Below are positions 1 to 22,519 of a DNA stretch of 23,021 nt, in pieces. A model generated the notes under the pieces. It saw nothing but the letters and a program-made list of their open reading frames with translations, was not told the origin of the DNA and made no database searches. A program made the position numbers and the translations under genes. This stretch comes from a virus. How positions within the stretch are numbered: the stretch's first letter is position 1; each line of letters starts with the position of its first letter. The stretch lies in the IMG/VR virus record IMGVR_UViG_3300028831_000002, positions 1 to 23,021 of that record. One strand, 5' to 3'.

Positions 1-35
1 GGTGACTGGAGTTCAGACGTGTGCTCTTCCGATCT
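1..35 (+). other. Illumina library adapter (artefact)
   Basis: Bases 2-35 match the TruSeq multiplexing (P7-side) adapter as I remember it, ending in GTGCTCTTCCGATCT. Base 1 would be the last base of the i7 index. This is not phage DNA, and the biological insert starts at base 36. The adapter interrupts the minus-strand holin-like gene, so the contig end here is a sequencing or assembly artefact rather than a natural genome end. The short plus-strand open frame over bases 2-244 begins in the adapter and is not a gene. Confidence 0.97.
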
Positions 36-410
36 GGCACCGCTGGCGATTCGGACATTGTTATCCCATCTCTGTTCGGGGTTACGGAATATGTCTGAAT
101 GGTCTTGGCGCGGCTGGAACGGCAGGTTCTGAACCCGCAACATTACCCGTTCCGCAGAACCGTTTCCGTTTAGTTCCTTGTACGGGAGGTACAGGTACTT
201 GTACAGGTTTTCGTATTCGTCATAAGTTACTGACCCCCGCTTGATGTACTCGAGACCGAGCGCAATGATCTGAGCCTGAGCAAGCCCCATCGTAAGGCGA
301 TCCTTAGCCTTACGAGTATTGTCCCTGCTCCGAATATACGTCCACAGGCCGGTCGTAAAGCCTCCGGAGCCGATTATGATCGCCAGGACCCTGAGCCAAA
401 CCTCACTCAT
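36..410 (-). CDS. Probable holin, 3' end truncated by adapter
   Basis: The frame opens at ATG 410-408, with a GGAGG at 425-421 ten bases upstream, and stays open for 125 codons to base 36, where the adapter begins. The start MSEVWLRVLAIIIGSGGF gives one hydrophobic segment at about residues 4-24. A basic loop follows, then a soluble part containing LTMGLAQAQIIALGLEYIKRG and YKYLYLPYKELNGNGSAERV. From memory this layout matches a common actinophage family annotated as holin: one N-terminal membrane helix followed by an 'LG.EYI.RG...YL..PY..L.GNG.AER' block. It would form the membrane lesion that releases the endolysin. It follows the tail-tip genes directly, as lysis genes often do. Holin function is inferred from family resemblance and position; a membrane-anchored tail-associated protein is the alternative. 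The C-terminus is missing. Confidence 0.6.
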
Positions 411-2874: not shown

Positions 2875-3689
2875 AAGCCTCCATATCGGGCAACGTATGA
2901 CAGAGTGTATGGGATGGCGGCACCCGTGGCATAAGCCCGGAAATGGTTATCCCCAGGCTTCAGTTGAACCCACGAACCAGATTGTGCGTACAGCAGTGAA
3001 CTAGTAATACCTGATCGAGTAAGGGTCACCCTCTTGTCGCCAGAGAGCGTAGAAACGGTAACCACGTCTCCAGCGACAAGGGATGCCTGAACGTCAAGGG
3101 ACTGCACAATATTGTCTTCGCCCTTGTTGTACAGGGTGAATTCAGTCAAAGACCGGTTCACATTGAGAATGAATTCGAAACCGGTATCGGTATCTCCTTC
3201 GTACTCGATCAGTGTTGTGGAGGTACTGGACACAGTAGATCCGGAAGGCAGTACCGTTTCGGTATTGTCCAGAAAATCCGGATCGAAACAGATTACCGAT
3301 ATGTCAGATTCCGGCGTGTCTGTGAAGATGGGAGACTGGCAGTACTCCACTCTTCCATCGATGTTTGCCACCAGACCTTCACTGTCGTAGAATCTTAGAC
3401 TTACGACATTCTTCACACGAAAATATCGCGCAAGATTCTTTCGGAGACTTGCGACGGTGTTGGTAAGGAAGTCGGACTCGATCCCGATCTTCATCGTGAT
3501 GTTTCGGCTCTCAAGACGACTTGACTGGTATTGTTCACCATCCGTCGCCGCGAAAGCAGAGGACACAATAGTGGCCTTCACGGGATCGAGTCCGGTAATA
3601 TCCTGAACACTGTAGCCATCCGAAATGTCATCGAGCGGCAAACTCAGGAGATCGCCCTGAGGAGTTCGTGCTTCAACTAGCGTGATCAT
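2871..3689 (-). CDS. Distal tail protein (Dit-like, siphovirus tail component)
   Basis: 272 residues, ATG 3689, overlapping the tape-measure stop as ATGA. GGAGAG lies about 5 bases upstream. The first 130 residues fit the siphovirus Dit N-terminal domain: an early GY.V.DITGLDPVK segment, then SSRLESRNITMKIGIES, RKNLARYFR and VSLRFYDSEG. They are followed by the 'V.YC.SPIFTDTPE..ISV.CFDP.FL' strand typical of this family. The remaining part (about 150-272) is a beta-rich C-terminal domain of the kind that faces outward from the Dit ring. It should form the hexameric hub joining tail tube and tip. The order tape measure, Dit, Gp37-like is the standard siphovirus order and supports the call. Confidence 0.88.
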   Translation of the reverse strand: MITLVEARTPQGDLLSLPLDDISDGYSVQDITGLDPVKATIVSSAFAATDGEQYQSSRLESRNITMKIGIESDFLTNTVASLRKNLARYFRVKNVVSLRFYDSEGLVANIDGRVEYCQSPIFTDTPESDISVICFDPDFLDNTETVLPSGSTVSSTSTTLIEYEGDTDTGFEFILNVNRSLTEFTLYNKGEDNIVQSLDVQASLVAGDVVTVSTLSGDKRVTLTRSGITSSLLYAQSGSWVQLKPGDNHFRAYATGAAIPYTLSYVARYGGL

Positions 3690-6600
3690 GGACTCTCCAG
3701 GGCTCCCTTCGCAACAGATATCTGGTTCTTGGTCTGGCGGTAGATTTCCGCATTGGACAATGCCTTGGGCGAATTGTTGTACTGATTCAGGACAACCGAC
3801 TTAACCACGGATGTAGTTTGGTCGGAGACTTCTCCCCTGGAAGTTGCCAGGGAATCGGAGATAGTCTTTGCCTTGAGATAGGACGGATCCACAGACATAG
3901 CACTTGAAGGAAGAATACTCCCAATTTGACTGGCAGACTTCTTCACTGCGGTCAGATCCAGAACCGGCGTAATTGTCGGTTGGAAACTGGTGTCAGACGT
4001 GATCAGATCAGAAAATCCGGTCATTGTCTTCTGCAATGCCTGTAGGGCGGTCTTTCCAGTGTTCTCAGCAGCCTTTCCGACAGATCCGGACATTTCGTCC
4101 AGTCCTTGGATAAGACCCTGCGCGGAATAGTCGCCCACCTCCATGAAAGCACGGGACGGGGACTTGATCTTCAGCTTCTTCTTGATGGCCTTGACCATGG
4201 CGTCCGCGATCTGGTCCATGACCTTTTCGATCTTCTTCTGATTCTTGATCAGACCATCGACAAGACCCTGGGCCGAATTGACCGCAGCCTGGTAAAGATT
4301 GGTAGATGCTGTCTTACCGAGTGCAGCACTAGCCGTATCCAGCTGCTTAGCCAGATCATTGATCTGATTAACACCGGCCTTACCATTCTTAAGAAGATCC
4401 TGAACGAACGGAAGAGCATCAGTTCCCTGTGTCAACAGGTCCTGATACGTTTCATCGTTCAAGCCCATCTTACGGAGCCTCTGAAGCGCATTCGCATACA
4501 CCTTGGTGTCTTCGACTTGCTTCTTAAGATCCGCAATATAGCTAGTTGTGGTGGTCTCAGCAGTGGGACTTGCCATGTTGCCATATTGTTCCGTGATCGA
4601 CTTGTTGTAGTCATCACGGGTCTTCTTGGCATTGGCAAGCGTTTCCTGAGCCGCCTTGATCTTGTCCGTGTACCTGTCGTACTGATCCGCAAGCTTACCG
4701 AGTTCCGTGCGGTCATCGGTGTAACTCTTGGTCAATGTCTTGTACGCGGCTGCAGCCTTAGCCCTCTCCTTGGCAGACTTCTTGGTGTTCTTGGAGAGGT
4801 CCAGCAGCATTTTCTTCAGGTCATTGAACGCGTCATAGACCTGAGACTTATTACCGTCCAGTCCCTTCCTGAAACCGTCATTGACATACTTACCGATCTT
4901 CTCGAATTCCTTCGAAGGCGAATGAATGCCGAGAACACCCTTGGCAGCGCTCAATGCCGAACTTGCAACGTCCTTTGCTGCCGAAGCAACTGCACTAATC
5001 CCACCGGCGATACCACTAACCATACCCTCAATAATTGCCGAAGCGAGGTTACGGCCAGCCGCATTCATAGCGTCAGAATTCTTACGAATTGCTCCGGCAA
5101 CGCCGTTGACAAAGCTGACGATCAACTTCACACCAGCATCGATTACCTTGGGAAGGTTCTTACTGATGCCGTTCAAGAACGCTACAACCGCATTAGTTGC
5201 CGCGGTGGACAATTTGTCAGCGTTCTTGGTAATGCCGTTGAAGACAGCGGTGATCAACTTCATACCAGTGTCGATCATCGGCGGTACATACTTCAACATA
5301 GCTTGAAGCATCATCAGCATAAGCCGGCCGAGAGTGTTGACGATCTTCGGCGTTAGCTGTGCAATGGCGTCGATCAGCGAATTCAGAACTGTCGTGATTG
5401 CCTTGGTAATGGCTGGACCAGCCGTAGAAATAACCTTGGCAAATGCGATGATTCCTAGACCGATTTCTTCCATCAACTTAGGAATAAGACCGATCAGACC
5501 GCTGACAATACCGACCACAGCAGCTGTACCTGCTGCACCAGCCGCCGCGAGAGCTGTAAGCCCTGTAGCGAACAGGAACATGCCTCCGCCAGCCGCCAGC
5601 AAACCGATGCCAAGCAGAGCAACAGCGGCACCCAGACCGATCATCACCGGAATAACCGGAGCAAGCAACAAAGCTGCCGCACCGAATACAGCGAAGACGC
5701 CGGCCAACATGAGAAGGGATTTCCCAATCTCAGCCAAGGACATTTGCGAGAACTGCTGAAGAACTGGCGCCAATATCGCCAAAGCTGCGGCTATGACAAT
5801 TGTGGCTGCTGCACCCGGAAGAGCGCCAGTCATCAAATACATCGCACCGGCGATCAAACCCAGCGTACCCGCCAGCATGACCATAGCCTTACCGATTTCT
5901 TCCCAAGAATATTCCGCAAAGTCCGATAGAACCTTAGCGATCTGATTCAAGGAAATGGCAACCAGCAGAATTCCAGCGGCAGCAAGAGGAGCCGTCGGAG
6001 GAATGACGTACAACGCCGCAGTGATTATACCGAGTGCTCCGAGCATGGTTGTCAGACTGGAGCCGATGTTGGCCCAGCTCAACTTAGCCATGTCTTCCAG
6101 AGCATCTCCGATCATACCCAGGGACAAAGCCACACCGAGTACTCCGGCTGCCGCAAGAGGCGCATTCGGAGGGATCAGCATAAGAGCACCGGTAATAATC
6201 GCCAGCGCTCCAGCCAGAGAGACAAGTCCCTTGGCTACTTCATTCCAGGACATCTTCGAGAGATCAGTAACGGCACTGGCGAGGATCTTGATCCCTGCCG
6301 CCAGTAGCAGAATACCCGCACCCTGACCGATTCCGCCCTTATTTACCTTGGCGAACATCGTGAATAGGGTCAGTGATCCTAGGAGGGCCCCTACACCTAC
6401 AAGTCCCTTAGCTATCTCATTCCAGCTCAAACCGGACAAGTCTGTAACAGCACTCGCCAGGATTTTGATCGCCCCCGCAAGAGCAATCAGCCCAAGTCCG
6501 GTAGATATCATTCCAGTCGGAGTAGGCATGAACTTCAAGGCACCGACGATAAGACCCATCGTCACTGCCAGACCAGTGAGGCCCTTAGCCAGACCGTTCC

Positions 6601-9157: not shown

Positions 9158-9543
9158 GCAGAGGTCACCGCCTTCCATACTTGCTCTGCTATACGATCAA
9201 ACACAGGTCTCATAGCCGGATTGATGTAATCCTGTCCTTGGACGTACCCGCCGGTTCCGGTTCCGTGACCATACTGAAGCATGATGCCAACGGGAAAACC
9301 GTTCTCGACGTCATTGTTGGTCCACTTGATAGTTACGGAACTGGAGGTTCTTTCTATCTCGTAAGACCAGGATTCAGCAGCCAATCCGGAATCAACCGGA
9401 GTACCTGCAATCAAAGCAGACACGCCTTCTCGGGCGGAGGAATCCAAAGCTTTGAAAAGGTCTCCCTGTTTCATCCTCCGGAGAAAATTTTCGGTCCGCT
9501 TAGTGGAGCCGCTGACTGTAAAACTAATCAATTCGGCTCCCAT
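9154..9543 (-). CDS. HK97-gp10-like tail/neck completion protein
   Basis: 129 residues, ATG 9543, six bases downstream of the previous stop and without a strong ribosome site, so probably translationally coupled. The central PVDSGLAAESWSYEIERT followed by a strand, then GIMLQYGHGTGTGGYVQG and INPAMRPVFD, fits the HK97-gp10-like tail-component fold. In that family a 'P.DTG.L..S' turn precedes 'YA..VE.GTG' and a C-terminal 'PF..PA' helix. Members usually act at the head-tail joint or in tail completion and sit next to the tail terminator. Here the gene lies immediately before the tape measure, well away from the neck genes, which is unusual. Family membership is likely; the exact assembly step is uncertain. 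Confidence 0.6.
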   Translation of the reverse strand: MGAELISFTVSGSTKRTENFLRRMKQGDLFKALDSSAREGVSALIAGTPVDSGLAAESWSYEIERTSSSVTIKWTNNDVENGFPVGIMLQYGHGTGTGGYVQGQDYINPAMRPVFDRIAEQVWKAVTSA

Positions 9544-9548
9544 TTTGA

Positions 9549-9803
9549 CTAGAGCGAAAGGTTCGCTTCGGTTACGGAAGTCTTGGTTATAGACTGAACC
9601 GAATAGGTCTCGGATGCAGCTGCGATGGCGTTCGCAAACGTCCGAATAGCTTCCTCAACCGTATCGGTTGAAAGACCGGTAGAATTACCTACGATTTCGA
9701 AATCGAAACTGTCGAATTCTACATCGGGTGCGTTGTCTCGGACAGATACGGCGTAGAGAACTCTAGGTCCCTGAACCGTAACCACTCGATTCAGCTGTGC
9801 CAT
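9549..9803 (-). CDS. Small conserved-looking protein of the pre-tape-measure block, unknown
   Basis: 84 residues from ATG 9803, with AAGGAAGG about 8 bases upstream. Soluble, no signal peptide or membrane segment. A short beta-rich N-terminal half (RVVTVQGPRVLYAVSVRD, then VEFDSFDFEIVG) is followed by a helix (TVEEAIRTFANAIAAAS) and a Ser/Thr-rich end. I do not recognise the family. The gene is tightly placed between the fibre-like gene and the gp10-like gene, so it probably contributes to the same structure or its assembly. Coding status is supported by the ribosome site, close spacing on both sides and a composition like its neighbours. Confidence 0.65.
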   Translation of the reverse strand: MAQLNRVVTVQGPRVLYAVSVRDNAPDVEFDSFDFEIVGNSTGLSTDTVEEAIRTFANAIAAASETYSVQSITKTSVTEANLSL

Positions 9804-11054: not shown

Positions 11055-11843
11055 CTACTCAGAACTGATGGTGTAGGTGTCCTCGTCGATGAATGTAGCA
11101 GTCGGTGAGGTAATTTCGAACGTCTCCTCATCAAGCATGCGAATAACATCGAAGGGGGCAGTTGCCGTCCACGTACCATCGCCATTGTTGGTAATGGTCA
11201 GCGTGGATATGGTGTCATAGGCTTCGATCAGTTCTTCGATGGTGGGAATTCGTGGTTGATCGTCATCAGTGCCGTAAAGAATATCCTCAACGGCTGCCAG
11301 AGAAATAGGATCGGTTGTCCGAGAATCCAGAATCACGTGAGCACTCGGCCTGTATCCAGGCATCAGAGGAGGCTTGCAAGTGATCTTCCAGCTGAATTCG
11401 TCCAATTCGGCGGTTTCAGTGATTGTCGAATTCGATCGTTCCGTAGGTGAAACTGTGGCGTTGTAGACGATATGGATTCTATATCCGGCGTCTTCCGATT
11501 GATCGTTACCCAGTCTCGTTCGGTACGACAAACTGAAAGGCTTTCGCCTCTGATGAGTGAAGAACATTCCAGATCGAGGCTGTGCATTACCATTGCACAG
11601 TTCGAATTCATCGGGGTAGATGAAAGCATTAATAGTGCCTTCGAATTCTTCCGGGGAAGGAAGAACGAGATACTTAATGCCGTCAATATAGAAAGACCTG
11701 GGGTCTCCGCCCGAGGGAGTTTCGTTTACTGAAGTCAGTCCATTCCACGGAACACCGGGGTATCCATCGACATAGAGGACTCCTCGATCCAGGCCGGTTT
11801 CGTAATACTTTGAACCTGGTGTACCCCATTCAAGCCTGGTCAC
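11055..11843 (-). CDS. Second tail tube-like protein, diverged paralogue of the major tail protein
   Basis: 262 residues from GTG 11843, with a perfect AAAGGAGG six bases upstream. Residues 1-210 align end to end with the major tail protein at 12422-13306. Shared blocks, written as major/this copy, include GVLY, WNGLT(T/S)V(T/N)E(S/T)PSG, EEF(G/E)GTI(E/N)AF(M/I)YPD, LSYRT, GND, AGY(K/R)IH(L/I)VY and LYGT...PR(L/I)P. The C-terminal 50 residues differ: here they form a 'NNGDGTWTATAPFDVI' beta segment instead of the domain shared by capsid and major tube. Codon use looks less biased to C/G endings than in the major tube gene, suggesting lower expression. It could form a specialised ring at one end of the tube or a minor tube subunit carrying the next gene's fibre. 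Homology is certain by eye; the role is inferred. Confidence 0.85.
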   Translation of the reverse strand: MTRLEWGTPGSKYYETGLDRGVLYVDGYPGVPWNGLTSVNETPSGGDPRSFYIDGIKYLVLPSPEEFEGTINAFIYPDEFELCNGNAQPRSGMFFTHQRRKPFSLSYRTRLGNDQSEDAGYRIHIVYNATVSPTERSNSTITETAELDEFSWKITCKPPLMPGYRPSAHVILDSRTTDPISLAAVEDILYGTDDDQPRIPTIEELIEAYDTISTLTITNNGDGTWTATAPFDVIRMLDEETFEITSPTATFIDEDTYTISSE

Positions 11844-11856
11844 GTAAATCCTCCTT

Positions 11857-12396
11857 TCATCCGGAACTGCCGAATTGTTCGCGTCGTCTGGCGTTCAATT
11901 CTCGTTGTTGACGAATAGCTTCAGACTTACTCATCTTCTTCGGGGGCATACTCTTTCTTTGACAAACTTGAATGAGAGTAAGCAATCTGTTTAGATGCCA
12001 GGTCTCGCATTCAAAGGGTATGTTGCAACTTACCATCCAATAATAGATGACTTCAGCCGTGACGATTTCCTTGTTCCCTTTAGAAGGAACGGTTTTTGGA
12101 AACCAGGTTGCAGTCATCTTCGCAGCTATATGGTTGGTAATGGAATCAACGTTGTCAGAGGAAAGAGATGCGTAAACCGAATCAGGAACATCGGGAGTGA
12201 GAGTCATGCATTTGATGTATTCCAAAACCTCTTCCGGAGTTTTCTCAGAATCACTCAGGTAGGGTTTTTCGAATTTTGACTCCCATTTTGACAAGGAAGC
12301 CAGAGAGTGCTCCATCTCAAGTATGAAACTATCTCCGATCACAAACTCATTCTTATCGTTGATCTTTTCAGTCAAGGGAACAACAATAGAAAGCAC
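11857..12396 (-). CDS. Tail assembly chaperone-like protein
   Basis: 179 residues from GTG 12396, with AAGGAGG seven bases upstream. It starts LSIVVPLTEKINDKNEF and contains SLASLSKWESKFEKPYL, KCMTLTPDVP, KMTATWFP and EVIYYWMVSCNIPFECETWH, then LNRLLTLIQVCQRKSMPPKK and a basic C-terminus. From memory this matches a family in Gram-positive phages encoded between the tube and tape-measure genes and taken as the tail assembly chaperone, the protein that coats the tape measure before tube polymerisation. Unlike lambda G/GT, I see no obvious slippery heptamer or overlapping second frame, so a frameshifted long form is not indicated. Its place between two tube paralogues, not just before the tape measure, is unusual. 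It is more AT-rich than the adjacent major tube gene. Confidence 0.75.
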   Translation of the reverse strand: MLSIVVPLTEKINDKNEFVIGDSFILEMEHSLASLSKWESKFEKPYLSDSEKTPEEVLEYIKCMTLTPDVPDSVYASLSSDNVDSITNHIAAKMTATWFPKTVPSKGNKEIVTAEVIYYWMVSCNIPFECETWHLNRLLTLIQVCQRKSMPPKKMSKSEAIRQQRELNARRREQFGSSG

Positions 12397-12421: not shown

Positions 12422-12631
12422 TTACGCGAAGTCAATAGTCCAGTCATTGTCTGCGTCGTCCGGGAACTGGTAGCCGGCCGCAGGCTGAGCCTCGATGAAG
12501 GTGTCCGCCGTAATCGGACCGTAAGGACCGGACGGAACCAGCTCGCCACCGATGTAGTAGTTCACACCGGTGATAGACGGAATGGTGATGATGTCCGTCG
12601 TAGAGTTGTAGGTCGGCTGCGTCGGGGTGAC
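12422..12631 (-). repeat. C-terminal beta domain of the tube protein, copy 1 of a shared domain
   Basis: Residues 226-294 of the major tail protein. Shares with the capsid C-terminus the pattern P(T)(Q/K)P(T/A)(Y/F)(N/D)STT(D/G)(I/V)(I/V)TIP(S/T)xTGV.Y ... AGYxFPDxxxxDWT, using the tube/capsid order at each split site. Confidence 0.8.
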
Positions 12632-13306
12632 CGTGGTGATCGTGCCCGAGAAGAACGCAACGACCTCTGCCGGCGAAGGAAGGCGCGGGTCCTGACCCAC
12701 AGTTCCGTAAAGGGCGTCCTCCAGAGCGGCCAGAGCAGTCGCATCTACCTTGGTGGACTCGATTACAAGGGTAGCCGTGGGCTTGTAGTCGGTACCTCCG
12801 ATGGTCCCCACCTCGACCGGAGTGGTGGTGAACTCCCAACTGAGGTTGATCGGCTCCGGAGAGTCGTTGACCGTGGCGTACGCCTTCTCCGAAGGAGAAG
12901 CCTTGGCGCCGTAGACCAGGTGGATCTTGTAACCGGCCGTCTCGTCCAGATCGTTACCGACCAGAGTCCGGTAAGACAGACCGAAGGAACGTCGCTTCTG
13001 CTGGCCGATGGTGATACCAGCCTGAGGAACCGCAGAACCGTCGCACTCAGCCCAGGCATCCGGGTACATGAACGCCTCGATGGTGCCCCCGAACTCCTCG
13101 GCGGAGTACAGGTTCGCATAGACCTGGTTGTCGGCGTACTGCTTGTTGGACTCAGCGCCAGAAGGCGACTCCGTGACGGTGGTCAGACCATTCCAGGCGT
13201 GACCCTCGTCGTAAACGCCAGACTCGTTGTGGAGATAAAGAACGCCATGGTCAACGCCGTTCTCGTAGAACTTCTCTCCCGTCTGGTCCCATACGAGCTT
13301 ACTCAT
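12422..13306 (-). CDS. Major tail tube protein with C-terminal add-on domain
   Basis: 294 residues, ATG 13306, with AGAGGAAG upstream. Residues 1-220 are the tube subunit: MSKLVWDQTGEKFYENGVDH, WNGLTTVTESPSG, EEFGGTIEAFMYPD, FGLSYRTLVGND and AGYKIHLVYG, of a family I know as major tail protein in Gram-positive siphophages. Residues about 226-294 form a separate small beta domain (TPTQPTYNSTTDIITIPSIT ... AGYQFPDDADNDWTIDFA) that recurs at the end of the major capsid protein of this phage. Such add-ons decorate the outside of the tube. Codons are strongly C/G-ending compared with the genes just downstream, as expected for one of the most abundant virion proteins. It follows the tail terminator gene, the standard position. 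Confidence 0.9.
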   Translation of the reverse strand: MSKLVWDQTGEKFYENGVDHGVLYLHNESGVYDEGHAWNGLTTVTESPSGAESNKQYADNQVYANLYSAEEFGGTIEAFMYPDAWAECDGSAVPQAGITIGQQKRRSFGLSYRTLVGNDLDETAGYKIHLVYGAKASPSEKAYATVNDSPEPINLSWEFTTTPVEVGTIGGTDYKPTATLVIESTKVDATALAALEDALYGTVGQDPRLPSPAEVVAFFSGTITTVTPTQPTYNSTTDIITIPSITGVNYYIGGELVPSGPYGPITADTFIEAQPAAGYQFPDDADNDWTIDFA

Positions 13307-13955: not shown

Positions 13956-14180
13956 TCAGGCGTGCTTACGAGTGAAGGTCCAGTCATCCGTCTGGTTGTC
14001 CGGGAAGTAGTAACCCGAACCGGCGACCGCGGTGATGGTGGTAGACTCGCCAGCCGCGAGCGCAGTCTGAGCGCCGGCGGACAGCGTGGTACCAGCCTCG
14101 TCCTTGTAGGTGACACCAGTCTGAGTCGGGATCGTCACGACACCAGTGGTCGAGTCGAACGCCGGCTTGGTCGGGATGAC
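13956..14180 (-). repeat. C-terminal beta domain of the capsid protein, copy 2 of a shared domain
   Basis: Residues 596-669 of the protease-capsid fusion: PTKPAFDSTTGVVTIPTQTG ... GYYFPDNQTDDWTF. Homologous to residues 226-294 of the major tail protein; short identical DNA blocks remain at the two ends of the genes. Confidence 0.8.
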
Positions 14181-15965
14181 CTTGTTGGCAGCCGTAGTCG
14201 TCTTGATGACGATCGCAGTCTTCGGCTTGATGAGGGCACCGGACATGCGAGTCTCCAGCAGGTACTTCTGCTGGTTGTAGTCGATGTCGAAGTCCTCGAA
14301 CATGGTGAGTTCGCCACCACGGTCCGTACCGACGTTGTAGTCATCCAGGTTGACGATGATTCCGATGAGGTCAGAAACCTCCTTCATCGGCTCCACGTTG
14401 ACGATCTTGGAAACGCCGAGGGCGTCCGCGACCTCCTGGTTGTTGGCGTAGTAACGCCGGCCCATCTCGTCCCGGGCCTTCTTGAACTGGTTGACCTGGG
14501 GGATGGTGGTGTAGAACGTCGGGCTACCAGCACCCTTGTAGAACTCCATACCGTCCATGACGGCGTCCACAACCTCCTCGTAAGAGGAGTTGGCGTCGCT
14601 GACGTTGACGTAAACGACCGTAACGAACAGCTCGTGGTCGTTCAGGATGGAACGGATACCGGTGCCCTCAGAGGCACCGGCCGGGTCCTTGATCTTGTCG
14701 TCGGCACTCGGGGAACGACCGTCACCGATGAGGATCGCGCGGGCGATCTCTTCCTCGGTCATGAGACGCATCTCGGCCTTGAGGAAGGCGACCACGTCGA
14801 AGTCCGTGATGTCGATCATGTCATCACGGTCGAGCTTCTGCTTCTTGTAGATCGTGGTGGGAGAGGTCGTGCGCTTGGTAACGCCGATCCACTCCTCCTC
14901 CTTGTAGTCACCCGTGATGTAACCCTTGGCGCGGGCCTCTTCCTGGGTAAGGTCCGCCACGAAGGTCTTGATGCGGGCGAAAGGAGTCTTGCGGGTGCCG
15001 TTGAGAACATCGGCAACCCACTCGGTGCGACGCTTCTCCAGCTCGATCGTGCCCGTAGCCATCTTGGCGTCCGGGAAGAGAACATCGATGTTGTCGATGC
15101 CGTGCTGAAGAGCAGCGGAATGAGCCGCCTTCTTCAGGGAGCCGACCTTCATGGCGTCGTCGAAGATCGCCGCGATCTCGGCATGGGACAGCGTCTTAGC
15201 GTCGTCCTTCTTGGTGGTCTCGTCGAACACATTGCGGCCGCTCATGTCGTCGGCTCCTTCCTTGTGGGTGAGTTCGTTCTCAGGGTCGGACTTCTCGGAG
15301 TGTTCGGCTGTGGCAGACTTGCGTGCCTCGTTCACCGCGAAGTAGAAGACGTCTTGCTGCTGCTCGTTCATGGAGTTGACGATGTCCATAAGGGACTTGC
15401 CATCACCCTCAGCATGCTTGAGCTCTGTCTCCGACTCCTTGCCTTCTTCAGCCGCGGGAGCCTCTTCCTTCGGCTTCTCGGAAGCGTCCGTTTCGGAAGA
15501 GTGCTGAAGTTCGATCTCGGAATCGGTGTAGATGATGACCTCGTCATCCTGCTCGGTGTAAGAACCATCACCGTGCTTGATGTTGAGGTTATCGATGACC
15601 GCGCCGGGATTAGCACCGGCGAGAACCAGACTGACTTCGCGAATCTGTCCATGGGTGACCTTCTTACCCTGCTCAACCAACTGGTTAGCAAAGATCGAAA
15701 GGTACTTCAGATCGCCATGCTGGACCATGGTCTTGGCGTTCTGTCCCTGCGGTGTCTCATTGAAATAACCGTAGGCGTAAACGCCCTCGTCACGGTGTTC
15801 CAGCGTAGCGTAACCGAGAACGTTCTCGATCTTGTTATGCACGTGCTGGTAGACGAGAGGAATCTGGACCTTGTCCATGTGCTGAAACGCGCCGGACATG
15901 ATGGTTCGCCCGTCGGTGCACTTGAGACCGGTCTTGGTAGCCCAGCCGCCGAAGTCTGCTTCCAT
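13956..15965 (-). CDS. Prohead protease - scaffold linker - major capsid protein fusion
   Basis: 669 residues from ATG 15965, chosen because AAAGGAGA lies 8 bases upstream; ATG 16016 lies inside the portal gene without such a site. Residues 1-135 are an HK97-type serine prohead protease: YQHVHN (His41/His43 candidate), DLKYLSIFANQ and REVSLVLAGANPGA (Ser112). Residues about 136-240 are an acidic, low-complexity linker, likely scaffold. Residues about 240-595 are the capsid domain (SHAEIAAIFDDAMK, IDNIDVLFPDA, YKKQKLDRDDMIDITDFDVV, EEEIARAILIGDGR). Residues 596-669 form a C-terminal beta domain like the one on the major tube protein. In most HK97-type phages protease, scaffold and capsid are separate genes; protease-capsid fusions are known but less common. 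An internal ATG at 15245 with its own strong ribosome site could give a free 429-residue capsid protein. Codon use is strongly C/G-ending. Confidence 0.9.
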   Translation of the reverse strand: MEADFGGWATKTGLKCTDGRTIMSGAFQHMDKVQIPLVYQHVHNKIENVLGYATLEHRDEGVYAYGYFNETPQGQNAKTMVQHGDLKYLSIFANQLVEQGKKVTHGQIREVSLVLAGANPGAVIDNLNIKHGDGSYTEQDDEVIIYTDSEIELQHSSETDASEKPKEEAPAAEEGKESETELKHAEGDGKSLMDIVNSMNEQQQDVFYFAVNEARKSATAEHSEKSDPENELTHKEGADDMSGRNVFDETTKKDDAKTLSHAEIAAIFDDAMKVGSLKKAAHSAALQHGIDNIDVLFPDAKMATGTIELEKRRTEWVADVLNGTRKTPFARIKTFVADLTQEEARAKGYITGDYKEEEWIGVTKRTTSPTTIYKKQKLDRDDMIDITDFDVVAFLKAEMRLMTEEEIARAILIGDGRSPSADDKIKDPAGASEGTGIRSILNDHELFVTVVYVNVSDANSSYEEVVDAVMDGMEFYKGAGSPTFYTTIPQVNQFKKARDEMGRRYYANNQEVADALGVSKIVNVEPMKEVSDLIGIIVNLDDYNVGTDRGGELTMFEDFDIDYNQQKYLLETRMSGALIKPKTAIVIKTTTAANKVIPTKPAFDSTTGVVTIPTQTGVTYKDEAGTTLSAGAQTALAAGESTTITAVAGSGYYFPDNQTDDWTFTRKHA
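15243..15263 (-). promoter_or_regulatory. Internal ribosome-binding site and in-frame start for free capsid protein
   Basis: Inside the protease-capsid frame, AAGGAAGGAG (15263-15254) lies 8 bases before an in-frame ATG (15245-15243). The product would start MSGRNVFDETTKKDDAKTLS, precisely where the linker ends and the capsid domain starts, and would be 429 residues. The site is as good as those of separate genes in this cassette. Use in vivo is inferred, not shown. Confidence 0.6.
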
Positions 15966-15981
15966 TTTGACGGTCTCCTTT
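15963..15981 (-). promoter_or_regulatory. Ribosome-binding site that fixes the protease-capsid start
   Basis: AAAGGAGA (15981-15974) lies 8 bases before ATG 15965-15963. The longer in-frame ATG at 16016 has no comparable site and would overlap the portal gene by 32 bases, so the shorter form (MEADFGGWATK...) is preferred. Confidence 0.75.
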
Positions 15982-15984
15982 CTG

Positions 15985-17304
15985 CTAGGTGTTTGGCTTG
16001 ACTCCGACGGAGCCATTAGTTAGCTGTTTCAGGGGAACCTTCTTGGTAAGAGTGTTCACCGGGGTTTCAGGAGGAGCGGCTCCGTATCCCATAGAAGTTC
16101 CAGGCTGGGGCATGTTGCTATTGATCAGCATGTCAGCCTTAGCGTCCTTCGAGGGCTTGAACCCGATTCCCTGACGTATCTCGTTGGCCGTAAGAATCTC
16201 GTTTCGGGTGAACTTGTCCGCGATCTCCGCAAGCTGCTCCATCGGGACCAGGGCGAACGGATCACGGAAGTACATAATCGACTGACCTTGAGTTCGAGCA
16301 GTCTTGGTAAGGAAACGAGCCTTCATGGCTTCCGAGACAGCCTGAACGATCGGGATGACGGTTCGGTTCATGTAATTGATCATGACCTTTTCGTCAGCCG
16401 TGCCGTTCATTACTTCTGGTGTCAAACCAAGTTCAACATAAAGTTTGTCGGTGAGATACTTGATCTGTTCCAGAAGATTATTCTCAACTGGCCGATTCAG
16501 CTGCTGGATCTTCTCAGTTCCGTCGGTATAAGCGATACCGTACTTACTGCTCGTAAGCTGGAACTCAATATCCTTCATACGCTGGTCGGCCTGCTGCCTT
16601 CGAGCTTCAGACCTGACTACGTACGGAAGCTGAATGATCATGTCGAGCTTGCCGGAGCTAGCGGCTTCGTCTGCGCTATCCAGCAAACTAATCTTTCGAG
16701 CAAGCCTCTGCATTGTTGAACTGTTTTCGTTCATCACAGTAAACAGAGGATTCTCGACAATTGCTGTCATCCGCTTAGGTACTTCTACGATCTGTCGTTC
16801 GCCTCGACGCTGATCGTAAAGACTTACCTTGACAGTCTCTGGAGTCCATCCAACAATTTCGCCAACTCGGAGTTGCTGAATGTCGAAGTTGCCGGAATTA
16901 GTGGGGTCCATCGTAGTTTCGACTGGAACAATAGCGATGATTCCCTTTTCGAACAGGGTCATTGCAATGTCTCGTCGGAACTGGCGCGGACCTTGATCTA
17001 GGTTGGGATCTACCGTGAGACAGTCTTGAAGTCCGCTTTTGACGTCTTCTAGATACCGTTCTTCCGCATCTTGTCGAACGTGCCGGAAGATGATGCCCGA
17101 AACGTCAATAGCCAAACGAGTATAGATCGATGGGATGATCGACCGTTCCCCGCCCATGTAAGATGAACGAGGACGATGAGGAGGAGAGTAATAACCAATC
17201 CCGCTACTTCCTGTGGAGTGCAGTCCATTGATGTAGTTAGGATCGGTAAATATGTTCCATCCGTGCCGAAGACTACTCTTTACTTTTGAGAACAAGCTAG
17301 CCAT
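15985..17304 (-). CDS. Portal protein
   Basis: 439 residues, ATG 17304, with AAGGGGGTGA upstream (one mismatch to the full anti-Shine-Dalgarno partner). The early YTRLAIDVSGIIFRHVRQD is a typical portal segment, followed by a long central region and the stem-type segment LLEQIKYLTDKLYVELGLTP, then EVMNGTADEKVMINYMNRTV and a helical C-terminus with TRNEILTANEIRQGIGFKPS. The last pattern, 'R.E.LT.NEIR...G..P', is characteristic of HK97-type portals. Twelve copies form the ring through which terminase pumps DNA and to which the connector attaches. The gene sits between terminase large subunit and protease-capsid, the canonical order, with a 22-base gap on one side and a 19-base gap to the chosen protease start on the other. 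Confidence 0.93.
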   Translation of the reverse strand: MASLFSKVKSSLRHGWNIFTDPNYINGLHSTGSSGIGYYSPPHRPRSSYMGGERSIIPSIYTRLAIDVSGIIFRHVRQDAEERYLEDVKSGLQDCLTVDPNLDQGPRQFRRDIAMTLFEKGIIAIVPVETTMDPTNSGNFDIQQLRVGEIVGWTPETVKVSLYDQRRGERQIVEVPKRMTAIVENPLFTVMNENSSTMQRLARKISLLDSADEAASSGKLDMIIQLPYVVRSEARRQQADQRMKDIEFQLTSSKYGIAYTDGTEKIQQLNRPVENNLLEQIKYLTDKLYVELGLTPEVMNGTADEKVMINYMNRTVIPIVQAVSEAMKARFLTKTARTQGQSIMYFRDPFALVPMEQLAEIADKFTRNEILTANEIRQGIGFKPSKDAKADMLINSNMPQPGTSMGYGAAPPETPVNTLTKKVPLKQLTNGSVGVKPNT

Positions 17305-19086: not shown

Positions 19087-20808
19087 CTACCTTCCTACAT
19101 TGGTGTAGTGATTGGCGGCTCGACGAACGGCTACTTCGGCTCCTACACGGGCTGCAGCACCGGCTCCACCGGTATAAGCTGCCGCGGCAACCTTACCGGC
19201 TGCAAAAGTACCCTTGAGAGTGTTCTTGAGTATTTTTCCTGTGGGGGAATTCATAAACTTCCTGACATCTTCAATGGTCTTGCCCGCTTGAAGAATGTCC
19301 TTTACTACCTTGTGTCCCCGCTGAATATCAGACTTGTTGGTGGCCTGAAGCTGGCTGTACTGCTTTTCCAGATTCAGTCGATTGACCAGATGCTGAAGTT
19401 CCTGGTTACTTACAGTCTTGACGCCACCGGTGTTGATCTTGGTCTGGGTCGCAGAGGCAAGATTCGCATCTGATGAGGCTGGAGTAGAGGACGAAGATCC
19501 AGAACTGTTATCAGCCTTTCGTACACCCCACTTCATACCCTTGGTTCCGTAATGCTGAAGAAAATCGTTTACTTCTTCGAAGCCAGAATGCTTAGCATCG
19601 AAGTTGTACTCCATGTTCGTCAAACCGCCCCAAATCTCGGTACCGGGTCCCTTGTCTTCGCCGGTGACCTTGAATCCGAGCTTTTCGTAGATATGGCGAG
19701 CATCAGGAGAACGTCCTGGAACTTCAAGAGTCATCTTCTTGAAGCCCTGCTGCTTTCCGAAGTCCCGTCCAGCCTTCATAACGGCTGTGGCATAACCCTT
19801 ACCTCTTGCTGACTTGTCGATCCCAAGCCAGTTGAGATAGAGTTCTTCATCGTTCTTTTTCTGAACGTAAGCTTCCCCGACTTTCTTGCCGGATCCGTCC
19901 AGAATATTGAGTGAAGCCCTCTTCGAGTAACCTTCGCGAAACTTCTTACTGACCCTCCCCAGGGACTTAACCAGAACGTTAGGCTTTACCTTCTGGAGAG
20001 TAATTGTTTCTCCAGACTTGGTCTTCCTGGAAACTGAATCAGGGCCTAGGGACTTCAGTTCTGGACGGGGCTTTGACGAATCAGCCTTTCGAACGCCCCA
20101 GTGCATTCCCTTGACACCGTGGTGTTCAACCGAAGGATCGGTTTCTTCCGGAATATAGGTTTCCAGAAGATCAAGGAAGCCACCGTACTCGGCATCCAGA
20201 TTGAAGTCGTCGGAGGGGGATTCATCTAGATGCTTCAGAAAATCGTCTACTGCAGTACGACCGGAATCGGTCATTTGAGACATGGCTACCGCCGGATAGT
20301 CGTGATCGTAAGGCAGCAGATCGAATGTCGGCCCAATCGAGTTACCGACCCAGATAGCTACTCGATCGAAACGGACACTGTAGAACTCCCCGAGACCTTC
20401 TTCGAAATCCTTCGCAGGGGTTTCGGGGTAGCCTAGAGTCAGATGAGGTGTCCAGCCCTCAAATTGCTCTGTAGCGTTGTACGCAGCGTTGATCCTAGGA
20501 TCCTGAAGAAGGGTGTCCCGGAAACGAGCAATATTCTCAGACCACTTTTTGTTAAAGAAAAGGACGTCCGCGTCCTTATCCCCCAGGGTCCCCCTGGTTA
20601 CAACATCCAGGGAGAATTTCGCCAGCATGGAGGATGCATACTCAACATAGTCAGTCACATGGCTCAAACCATCAGAGCCAAAATCAGCGTCACCCAAGTA
20701 GAGAAGAGTGAGATGCGGCTCCTTCTCGCTGGAGACCTTTCGAACGAGGTCATTCTCAGCAGGGAGAGCTACAATGACTACACTATTTCCATTGCCGGAT
20801 TCTGCCAT
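19087..20808 (-). CDS. 2H phosphoesterase - GNAT acetyltransferase fusion with two HxGxKGMxWGVRK motifs
   Basis: 573 residues, ATG 20808 with GGAGG seven bases upstream; the first 31 bases overlap the connector gene. Residues 1-170 are a 2H phosphoesterase (2'-5' RNA ligase-like) domain with both active motifs intact: PHLTLLYLGD (His32, Thr34) and PHLTLGYPE (His122, Thr124). Residues about 300-385 are a GNAT domain: YLNWLGIDKSARGKGYATAV, the acetyl-CoA loop, and ARHIYEKLGFKV. Two peptides, HHGVKGMHWGVRK (229-241) and HYGTKGMKWGVRK (419-431), flank the GNAT part. The C-terminus has SNQELQHLVNRLNLEKQYSQ and an Ala/Gly-rich helix. From memory this motif and the C-terminal helices recur in head-module proteins of actinophages, often minor capsid proteins; the motif's function is unknown to me. 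It may be an internal or ejected head protein. Enzyme substrates are not evident. Confidence 0.8.
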   Translation of the reverse strand: MAESGNGNSVVIVALPAENDLVRKVSSEKEPHLTLLYLGDADFGSDGLSHVTDYVEYASSMLAKFSLDVVTRGTLGDKDADVLFFNKKWSENIARFRDTLLQDPRINAAYNATEQFEGWTPHLTLGYPETPAKDFEEGLGEFYSVRFDRVAIWVGNSIGPTFDLLPYDHDYPAVAMSQMTDSGRTAVDDFLKHLDESPSDDFNLDAEYGGFLDLLETYIPEETDPSVEHHGVKGMHWGVRKADSSKPRPELKSLGPDSVSRKTKSGETITLQKVKPNVLVKSLGRVSKKFREGYSKRASLNILDGSGKKVGEAYVQKKNDEELYLNWLGIDKSARGKGYATAVMKAGRDFGKQQGFKKMTLEVPGRSPDARHIYEKLGFKVTGEDKGPGTEIWGGLTNMEYNFDAKHSGFEEVNDFLQHYGTKGMKWGVRKADNSSGSSSSTPASSDANLASATQTKINTGGVKTVSNQELQHLVNRLNLEKQYSQLQATNKSDIQRGHKVVKDILQAGKTIEDVRKFMNSPTGKILKNTLKGTFAAGKVAAAAYTGGAGAAARVGAEVAVRRAANHYTNVGR

Positions 20809-21143
20809 TCCCTGCCCTCCCTTTCCACATTAAGGAGCCACTCGTACTTTTCTACCTGACGTTCCATTGAATTCAGAACTGTGGGGTTTGTTGGGGGGTC
20901 AAATATCAGGCGAAGCCTAAGATACATGTAAGACTTAACCTGATTCTGCTTTGGACCATAGATGAATTCATCCCACGTGGCAGTATCGTCCACGATCTCG
21001 AATCCCTCGTCTGGACCAAGCCCCAGCATAGCCAGATCTGCGAATACCGAGTTGATATGCACCAGAACATCTTCGTCAAATGACGGATCGTCAGGGTTTT
21101 GACTAAGAAGCTTCTTGGTGGTGTTGAGTATGCTCTGACTCAC
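20778..21143 (-). CDS. Possible free head-tail connector from internal start
   Basis: Alternative product of the gene above: GTG 21143-21141 in the same frame, with AAAGGAGG (21159-21152) 8 bases upstream, encodes 121 residues starting MSQSILNTTKKLLSQ. This is close to the usual length and start of gp6-like connectors as I remember them. It would form the ring on the portal to which the head-closure protein (13609-13938) docks. It is not a separate open frame because no stop precedes it, and whether both forms are made cannot be told from sequence alone. Confidence 0.6.
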   Translation of the reverse strand: MSQSILNTTKKLLSQNPDDPSFDEDVLVHINSVFADLAMLGLGPDEGFEIVDDTATWDEFIYGPKQNQVKSYMYLRLRLIFDPPTNPTVLNSMERQVEKYEWLLNVEREGREWQNPAMEIV

Positions 21144-22028
21144 ACTGGATCCCTCCTTTCGTATAGAATTTGCTGTGGAGGACTCCAGCGCAGGTGACAG
21201 AGTTGCAGTCTTGCCCCCAGTGACTGCCTGAGAACTCGCATTCTCTTCGGAAACGCTCAGTGTTCCTGAACGATTACCAGAAATATCCCCAGCGGTATCC
21301 GACTCAGAAGTCACCGACAGGGTCACAGACTTTTCACCACTAAGCGGCATAGACGAATCGCCGCTTGATGATATGGGGAATCCGCCTGTTTTGTTTCCAC
21401 CAACCGCCTGAGTGTCATCGTTCTCTGAAGAAAATCCCAGAGAAGACGACTTCTCGCCAGTTATCGGTTGAGAAGTCTCAGAGCTGCTTGCAGTGGGAAG
21501 GGTAGCCCCCGCAGAAACGTCTCCGGAAACGAAATTATCCCACAGAACAGACGCTGAGGATTCGCACCTGATACCTACATTGGTTCCCGTAGGAATGTCG
21601 GTGTTTGTGACTGAGACGCGTTCAACACCATTAACGAAACACTTGATCGTAGACCCTACGGCCTGGACTTTGGCTATGTCGTTAACTGCTGCAGGGGCTA
21701 CATAAGTCCCAAGTACAGTGAACGACCCTCCAACGACAGAGAACAAATCCCATTCAGATCCGTTGTTTCGCCATAGGTAACCGGAGGTTATGTTGGCGTT
21801 CCCTCGACACCAGACACCTTGTGACACAGACCCTGTAGCCGCAATAGTGGCCTGGGCAAAGTTATCGCTGGTGTCCATCGAAGCAGCGGCTCGGAGAATG
21901 ATCGTTCCACCAGCGGCTCCGGGTGAAAGCCGTCCGGAAGAAATCGACCAGTCACCAGATACCTCGACCCAGTTAGGTCCCAGGTCGCTATTATCGGCCC
22001 GGTCGAAGTTGTCGCTGAAGGTCGCCAT
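20778..22028 (-). CDS. LamG-like lectin/repeat protein fused to gp6-like head-tail connector
   Basis: 416 residues, ATG 22028, two bases after the previous stop. Residues 1-170 are a LamG/concanavalin-like beta sandwich (FSDNFDRADNSDLGPNW opening, GYLWRNNG middle, VLWDNFVSGD closing strand). Residues 177-288 hold tandem 20-residue repeats. Residues 296-416 are a compact helical domain: SQSILNTTKKLLSQ, SFDEDVLVHINSVFADLAML, GFEIVDDTATWDEFI, VKSYMYLRLRLIFDPP, EKYEWLLNVEREGREWQNP. From memory the last part is the phage gp6-like head-tail connector (adaptor) family, whose members are normally free proteins starting 'M..SILN..KK.LG'. A strong ribosome site and GTG sit exactly at that boundary, so connector may also be made alone. 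Position upstream of terminase is unusual for an adaptor; none follows the capsid gene here. Confidence 0.8.
   Translation of the reverse strand: MATFSDNFDRADNSDLGPNWVEVSGDWSISSGRLSPGAAGGTIILRAAASMDTSDNFAQATIAATGSVSQGVWCRGNANITSGYLWRNNGSEWDLFSVVGGSFTVLGTYVAPAAVNDIAKVQAVGSTIKCFVNGVERVSVTNTDIPTGTNVGIRCESSASVLWDNFVSGDVSAGATLPTASSSETSQPITGEKSSSLGFSSENDDTQAVGGNKTGGFPISSSGDSSMPLSGEKSVTLSVTSESDTAGDISGNRSGTLSVSEENASSQAVTGGKTATLSPALESSTANSIRKEGSSVSQSILNTTKKLLSQNPDDPSFDEDVLVHINSVFADLAMLGLGPDEGFEIVDDTATWDEFIYGPKQNQVKSYMYLRLRLIFDPPTNPTVLNSMERQVEKYEWLLNVEREGREWQNPAMEIV
21141..21159 (-). promoter_or_regulatory. Internal ribosome-binding site and GTG start for the connector
   Basis: AAAGGAGG (21159-21152), then an 8-base spacer, then GTG (21143-21141), lying at the junction between the 20-residue repeats and the connector domain. 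It is one of the best Shine-Dalgarno matches in the window. Confidence 0.65.
21165..21500 (-). repeat. Tandem 20-residue (60-base) repeats
   Basis: Five units of exactly 20 residues (177-196, 197-216, 217-236, 237-256, 257-276), plus a degenerate sixth that runs into the connector start. The loose consensus is hydrophobic-x-x-x-S-(S/E)-E-x-x-x-x-x-(I/V/L)-(T/S)-G-x-K-(S/T)-x-(S/T). Related to 'ETDTAQPxxxxK' style repeats I remember from phage and bacterial surface proteins. Diverged at DNA level, so old rather than recent duplication. Confidence 0.85.
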
Positions 22029-22030
22029 GA

Positions 22031-22474
22031 TCAGCCCGTAGAGTTGGCCCGGAACAGATCAGTGATGTTCAGAGTGAACGGGTTACCGTCCGGAGTCCAG
22101 CTAAGATCGGCCTTAGTAAGCGGAATCAGATCAGCGTCCGTACCGGTAGTAACATCCGGATCATAAAAGATCGCTACAGCAGCAACCTTATTACCCACAG
22201 GAGCAGACCAGGTAACACTGTTAGCACTTACAGTGACTCGGTCATTGACATCGTCAATGGCAGTGGTAACTCCGGTCAAAGTCTTTCGACCGACGGCAGA
22301 CTCGTTAGTGCTGCCGGAGAGAACATCCGCAGCAGTGTCCTTGTCCCGGAGGACGGCGTCTGATTCCAGACCAGTTTCTTCAAGAGGAATCAGAATGAAC
22401 GCATCATTCGGAGTAGGGAGATCAGCGTAGGCCGCCAACCGCCCAAGGGCTCGGTTGAAAGTTAGATTTGCCAT
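22031..22474 (-). CDS. Conserved beta-rich phage protein, possibly virion-associated
   Basis: 147 residues from ATG 22474, with a weak AAAGG about 7 bases upstream. The sequence MANLTFNRALGRLAAYADLP, DAFILIPLEETGLESDAVLR, ESAVGRKTLTGVTTAIDDV, RVTVSANSVTWSAPVGNKVA, FYDPDVTTGTDADLIPLTK and a final FRANSTG resembles a family I remember from actinophages, where it sits at the start of the structural cassette. The family function is not established to my knowledge. It is soluble and beta-rich, with no signal peptide. The next gene starts two bases after its stop without a clear ribosome site, so the lectin/connector gene probably depends on its translation. A head-associated or fibre-base role is possible. 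Confidence 0.75.
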   Translation of the reverse strand: MANLTFNRALGRLAAYADLPTPNDAFILIPLEETGLESDAVLRDKDTAADVLSGSTNESAVGRKTLTGVTTAIDDVNDRVTVSANSVTWSAPVGNKVAAVAIFYDPDVTTGTDADLIPLTKADLSWTPDGNPFTLNITDLFRANSTG

Positions 22475-22519
22475 TTAGCAACCTTTTAGATTGATGACCT
22501 ACGCTGTCATTTTGACGGT

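Follow-up and report, generated by a model that had tools for sequence, protein, structure and literature searches.

A lectin-fold arm fused in frame to a phage head-tail connector that retains its own internal start

We found that the head-tail connector gene of a virus record is preceded, in the same frame and without a stop codon, by a lectin-fold domain and a run of 20-residue repeats, and that the connector's own ribosome-binding site and start codon are preserved inside the fusion. The window analyzed is the whole 23,021-nucleotide stretch of IMG/VR record IMGVR_UViG_3300028831_000002, and its minus strand is the structural region of a siphophage near Streptomyces phages, e.g., Rainydai. 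A sequence-only reading of this DNA had claimed such a fusion, and the three parts indeed lie in one open frame of 416 codons (Table 1). The same arrangement occurs in a second record, L029 (IMGVR_UViG_3300045976_000025). The fusion with its intact internal start is genuine, being present in two divergent records.

Table 1. Positions in the window of the fused gene, its parts and its neighbors
Feature	Position	Strand	Evidence or remark
416-aa fused ORF: lectin domain, repeats, connector	20778..22028	minus	ATG at 22028; 416 codons open
Lectin-fold domain, residues 1-172	21513..22028	minus	phrog_2804, AF2, Foldseek, dN/dS
Six 20-residue repeats, residues 174-293	21150..21509	minus	lag-20 self-identity, phrog_14065
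Internal Shine-Dalgarno AAAGGAGG	21152..21159	minus	8 nt upstream of GTG; dG -20.9
Internal in-frame GTG, the family start codon	21141..21143	minus	same codon in 69/90 free relatives
Connector cistron, 121 aa (predicted), Phage_connect_2	20778..21143	minus	PF24829 at residues 300-405 of long form
147-aa cassette partner	22031..22474	minus	phrog_26662, weakly phrog_644
GTCAAAATG past the lysin stop	22508..22516	minus	in free relatives immediately 5' of connector SD
Next gene: 2'-5' RNA ligase-like, GNAT and DUF7211 parts	19087..20808	minus	connector end overlapped by 31 nt

The N-terminal domain had been described as LamG-like. Residues 3 to 168 match phrog_2804, a virion structural family (E = 2e-9), and the AF2 model of residues 1 to 172 is a beta sandwich with a pLDDT of about 95. 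A Foldseek search with these residues gave CBM66 as the best PDB fold match (E = 1e-9), then galectin-like and legume-lectin-like folds; domains of mycobacteriophage Douge also were among the matches after CBM66. A profile search of the protein with the Pfam LamG models, including Laminin_G_3, returned no LamG family match, so the lectin-like part of the description stands and "LamG" is valid just as a description of fold. The repeats are as they had been read: six copies of exactly 20 residues, with a lag-20 self-identity that none of 10,000 shuffles reached and a match to phrog_14065 over residues 179 to 289. AF2 predicts that they are disordered as a monomer, and for this reason "lectin-tipped flexible arm" is a safer wording than the "fibre" of the sequence-only reading.

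Analysis of the C-terminal part placed it in the Phage_connect_2 family (PF24829; E = 1.6e-33, 115.5 bits against a cut-off of 24.3), and this part also matches phrog_4247 (E = 1e-39). The gene lies between the lysin and terminase genes, as is usual for the Phage_connect_2/phrog_4247 family, but the connector is joined to a 295-residue arm rather than being a free protein of about 115 to 125 residues. The fused connector is a variant architecture and still a member of the domain family; the internal start is the one feature from which a free 121-aa form is predicted. The AF2 model of this form is all-helical (pLDDT of 88). Its top six Foldseek matches all are Sf6 gp7 or P22 gp4 adaptors, at a weak level (best E of 0.33, probability of 0.75, TM-score of about 0.5). 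PDB sequence searches gave no useful match. A search for PF24829 in 393 Streptomyces genomes, in which the controls were silent too, found none. That the connector normally is a separate protein was borne out: it is free of any lectin fusion at about 200 further connector loci, against the two fused records. Long open frames also stand ahead of the connector in four loci (L088, L188, L190 and L219); they match no lectin and were rejected as fusions. The connector of Arthrobacter phage Gordon (gp5; L008, 3846-4349) is annotated as 167 aa, but about 34 codons precede the family start in that gene, and the annotated start may thus be too far upstream.

The internal start was assessed by its pairing with the 16S rRNA tail. 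At -20.9 kcal/mol, the GTG at 21143 is the best of 236 internal in-frame ATG and GTG codons and of 634 such codons in all frames of the minus strand, and it equals the best true gene start in the window, that of the portal (-20.7). The ribosome-binding site is overlapped by the last of the six repeats. A strong Shine-Dalgarno (SD) start lies near this position in 86 of 90 free relatives, and 69 use the exact codon, which agrees with the earlier statement that AAAGGAGG and GTG remain at the family start. Many free relatives have an in-frame TGA just upstream of the SD; the window reads CGA there, and L029 reads GGA. By comparison, the long form's own ATG (22028) has an SD energy of just -2.5. 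It stands 2 nt past the TGA of the 147-aa gene (TGATCATG; the arrangement is identical in L029), which suggests that the long form would be made by termination-reinitiation. The ORF resembles nested genes of the Ms6 lysA type in having, in the same frame, an internal start preceded by a consensus ribosome-binding site. Alternative initiation, as the sequence-only reading had it, is compatible with the strength of this site and with its retention in two records; both products remain predicted.

In L029 the fused ORF (3386-4702) encodes 438 aa, and the gene order is that of the window: endolysin, a 150-aa gene, the lectin domain with seven repeats and the connector, the RNA ligase-like gene, terminase and portal. 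The two fused proteins are 49% identical. Their junction peptides have diverged (IRKEGSSV and LTHSGEGGTPV) while the SD and GTG are retained, and the internal GTG of L029 is the strongest in its ORF (-16.8; next best, -7.0), although somewhat weaker than the sites of free relatives. Comparison of the lectin domains gave a dN of 0.24 and a dS of 1.91 (dN/dS of about 0.13); the corresponding values for the connector are 0.49 and 2.77. Purifying selection acts on the lectin arm, which is maintained. A close-relative scan of viral contigs with the whole fused protein gave no match, and the fused-protein search succeeded only with an alignment that included L029. In the connector and terminase trees, L029 groups with phages that have a free connector rather than next to the window. 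This suggests either two separate fusions or a single one with later losses; AU tests did not reject a single clade of the two (P = 0.19 and 0.36).

The surroundings of the fused gene point to an inserted cassette. After the lysin stop the window reads GCTAAACCGTCAAAATGA, the same as a free-connector relative (L013) in which the connector SD comes immediately; in the window, the connector SD is separated from this stretch by the 147-aa gene and the lectin-repeat ORF. Since GTCAAAATG is directly 5' of the connector SD in free relatives, it marks the insertion point. Many relatives conserve this motif just upstream of the connector SD, and it may have a regulatory role in the phage. It occurs four times on the minus (coding) strand, against 0.19 expected (22508-22516, 15963-15971, 12284-12292 and 9541-9549).

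Several other features of the window were recorded. The gene at 19087-20808 encodes a single 573-aa protein with a 2'-5' RNA ligase-like part, a GNAT acetyltransferase part and DUF7211 motifs. The protease-capsid ORF (13956-16016, minus strand) has an internal ATG at 15965 with the SD GAAAGGAG (-13.4) and probably starts there, rather than at the upstream ATG. Two paralogous major tail protein genes (12422-13306 and 11055-11843) both belong to phrog_2645; the product of the former is also similar to the C terminus of the protease-capsid protein, and the two may share a surface domain. Positions 1 to 36 are untrimmed Illumina TruSeq adapter read-through (GTGACTGGAGTTCAGACGTGTGCTCTTCCGATCT), and a plus-strand ORF (2..244) consequently starts in artefact.

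The arm is not confined to connectors. It occurs in Streptomyces genomes (L229 to L240; 9 of 393 sampled), mostly behind the same small gene, and phage Hiyaa carries the small gene and a phrog_14065 protein right upstream of its head-to-tail adaptor. In five further loci (L111, L113, L114, L116 and L117) the same arm is fused to a tail terminator-related domain, and L107 has such a fusion with a more divergent arm. The terminator domain is about 30% identical to the annotated tail terminators of Zuko, KimJongPhill and Isperia (E values down to 3e-10) and matches phrog_123 (E = 0.0035). In L116 the arm-terminator gene has the neck genes on one side and the major tail protein gene on the other, and a gene that matches phrog_240, a head protein, precedes it; at this place Zuko has a free terminator and no cassette. 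No internal ribosome-binding site or start was found in these terminator fusions, so a neck ring seems able to bear the arm on all of its subunits. Arms on neck rings thus recur in unrelated phages, and phages seem to have added sticky arms to their necks time and again. Other lectin arms (L098 to L106, L121 and L229 to L239) end in short WxVGAP or PAERR tails and often are followed by a gene of about 92 aa (phrog_4137-like in L100). In L108 (6001-7122) and L110 (6001-7113) the fusion partner of the arm is a short cysteine-containing domain (WYxxLSI...CPYDGEPL), and the L108 join retains a GTG with a moderate SD (-9.3).

We favor, as rather probable, the explanation that a two-gene cassette was inserted and fused, and that the phage makes plain and arm-bearing connectors and displays glycan-binding arms at its neck. 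The cassette (the 147-aa companion and the lectin arm with its repeats) would have entered the genome of a Streptomyces-type siphophage, with the endolysin gene on one side and the connector gene on the other, and the arm frame would have become joined to that of the connector, whose ribosome-binding site and GTG survive within the fused gene. Initiation at the strong internal GTG would yield many plain 121-aa connectors, and coupled translation from the 147-aa gene would yield fewer 416-aa arm-bearing connectors from the same mRNA. If both forms join the connector ring, some flexible arms with putative glycan-binding tips would protrude at the neck and might help to hold the host surface. The arm itself would be a mobile module, which other phages have joined to different neck proteins. 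More tentatively, with slightly less than an even chance in our estimate, actinobacterial phages may share a mobile cassette of a small head-type protein and a lectin-repeat arm, fused repeatedly and independently to downstream neck ring proteins (connector, tail terminator and perhaps others) to give a glycan-binding collar in which the internal start, where kept, sets the number of arms. Considerations against the proposal are the rarity of fused connectors (two records against about 200 free), the predicted disorder of the repeats and the weak fold match of the connector to adaptors.

Four other explanations were weighed. An unlikely one, which still deserves some weight, is that only the 121-aa form works as a connector and the long form is a proteolytically released adhesin or a low-level nonvirion product; the stop could have been lost without harm because the connector starts on its own. 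The long form has by far the weaker start, the repeat region, if disordered, could be cleaved, and incorporation of the long form is something we infer. Yet both records, divergent as they are, retain the open junction, purifying selection acts on the lectin, and the terminator fusions have no separate short form; there the fused chain itself must work, unless it is cleaved. The apparent restriction of terminator fusions to the long form lends some credit to the converse notion, which we regard as improbable, that every ring subunit is armed and the internal ribosome-binding site is a leftover of the fusion event that is no longer used. The lower strength of the L029 site relative to those of free relatives fits this notion, but no real gene has a stronger site than that of the window, and in L029, whose junction peptide has diverged, the site still outranks every other in the ORF.

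A duplicate also might be involved, with a free connector elsewhere building the ring and the fused connector part serving as an anchor or decaying. The window is a 23-kb fragment, whereas the genomes of relatives are 43 to 57 kb, so a second connector gene could lie outside it, and the window connector sits on a long branch of the connector tree. We nevertheless judge this highly improbable: in both records the fused copy occupies the syntenic connector position, the listed relatives each have a single connector place, and the conserved residues of the family are kept in both fused connectors. Hardly any credence is given to a sequencing or assembly artefact hiding a stop near 21160, a reservation that the sequence-only reading had attached to its claim. 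The adapter at the start of the contig shows that the record is not clean, and several free relatives have the in-frame TGA where the window has CGA. An error is made very unlikely by L029, a different record that shares the same open junction at 49% protein identity and has the codon GGA.

Neck rings usually are regarded as conserved plumbing of fixed copy number. If the favored explanation is true, a lectin arm in the connector or terminator chain makes the neck a site of adhesion, and an internal start is a simple means of arming part of a symmetric ring. The signature of lectin-repeat ORFs ending in neck domains would also make collar devices findable in unannotated phages.

No system with which we compared the fusion has all three of its elements (lectin arm, connector, internal start), and the open-licence papers searched do not describe a connector or terminator with a fused lectin arm. 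The neck passage structure (collar and whiskers) of lactococcal 936 and TP901-1 phages equips the neck with sugar-binding domains that serve in accessory host binding (PMC6669499, PMC4493119), and the neck also is the location that we infer for the arm. Unlike the fused connector, the neck passage protein is separate, with about 500 to 900 residues comprising a BppU-like N-terminal domain, a helical stalk and a C-terminal CBM (PMC6669499, PMC4493119); it has no connector fusion and no short form from an internal start, and the domain order of the window (lectin, disordered repeats, connector) does not follow its architecture. In MTP-TpeX of 936 phages, a programmed frameshift adds a CBM to part of the major tail protein copies (PMC6669499). 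A carbohydrate module on a fraction of structural protein copies, set by a translational device, is what we predict here too; the arm, however, is N-terminal, the protein is one of the neck, and an internal start takes the place of the C-terminal frameshift. Two in-frame products of one ORF were shown by experiment for lysA of the actinobacterial phage Ms6, with its embedded Lysin241 (PMC3111421); the short product likewise comes from an internal ribosome-binding site, as predicted for the connector, but it is a lysin and not a structural ring protein. The adaptor of roseophage R4C has, like the fused connector, an additional N-terminal domain, which is Ig-like, sits on a long flexible loop and contacts the portal and capsid, according to excerpts of the R4C report (PMC10276861); those excerpts mention no lectin fold, repeats or short form. 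Finally, domains of mycobacteriophage Douge with a fold similar to that of the lectin arm bind actinobacterial surface glycans (PMC13033339), although in Douge they belong to the central fibre and baseplate and not to the connector.
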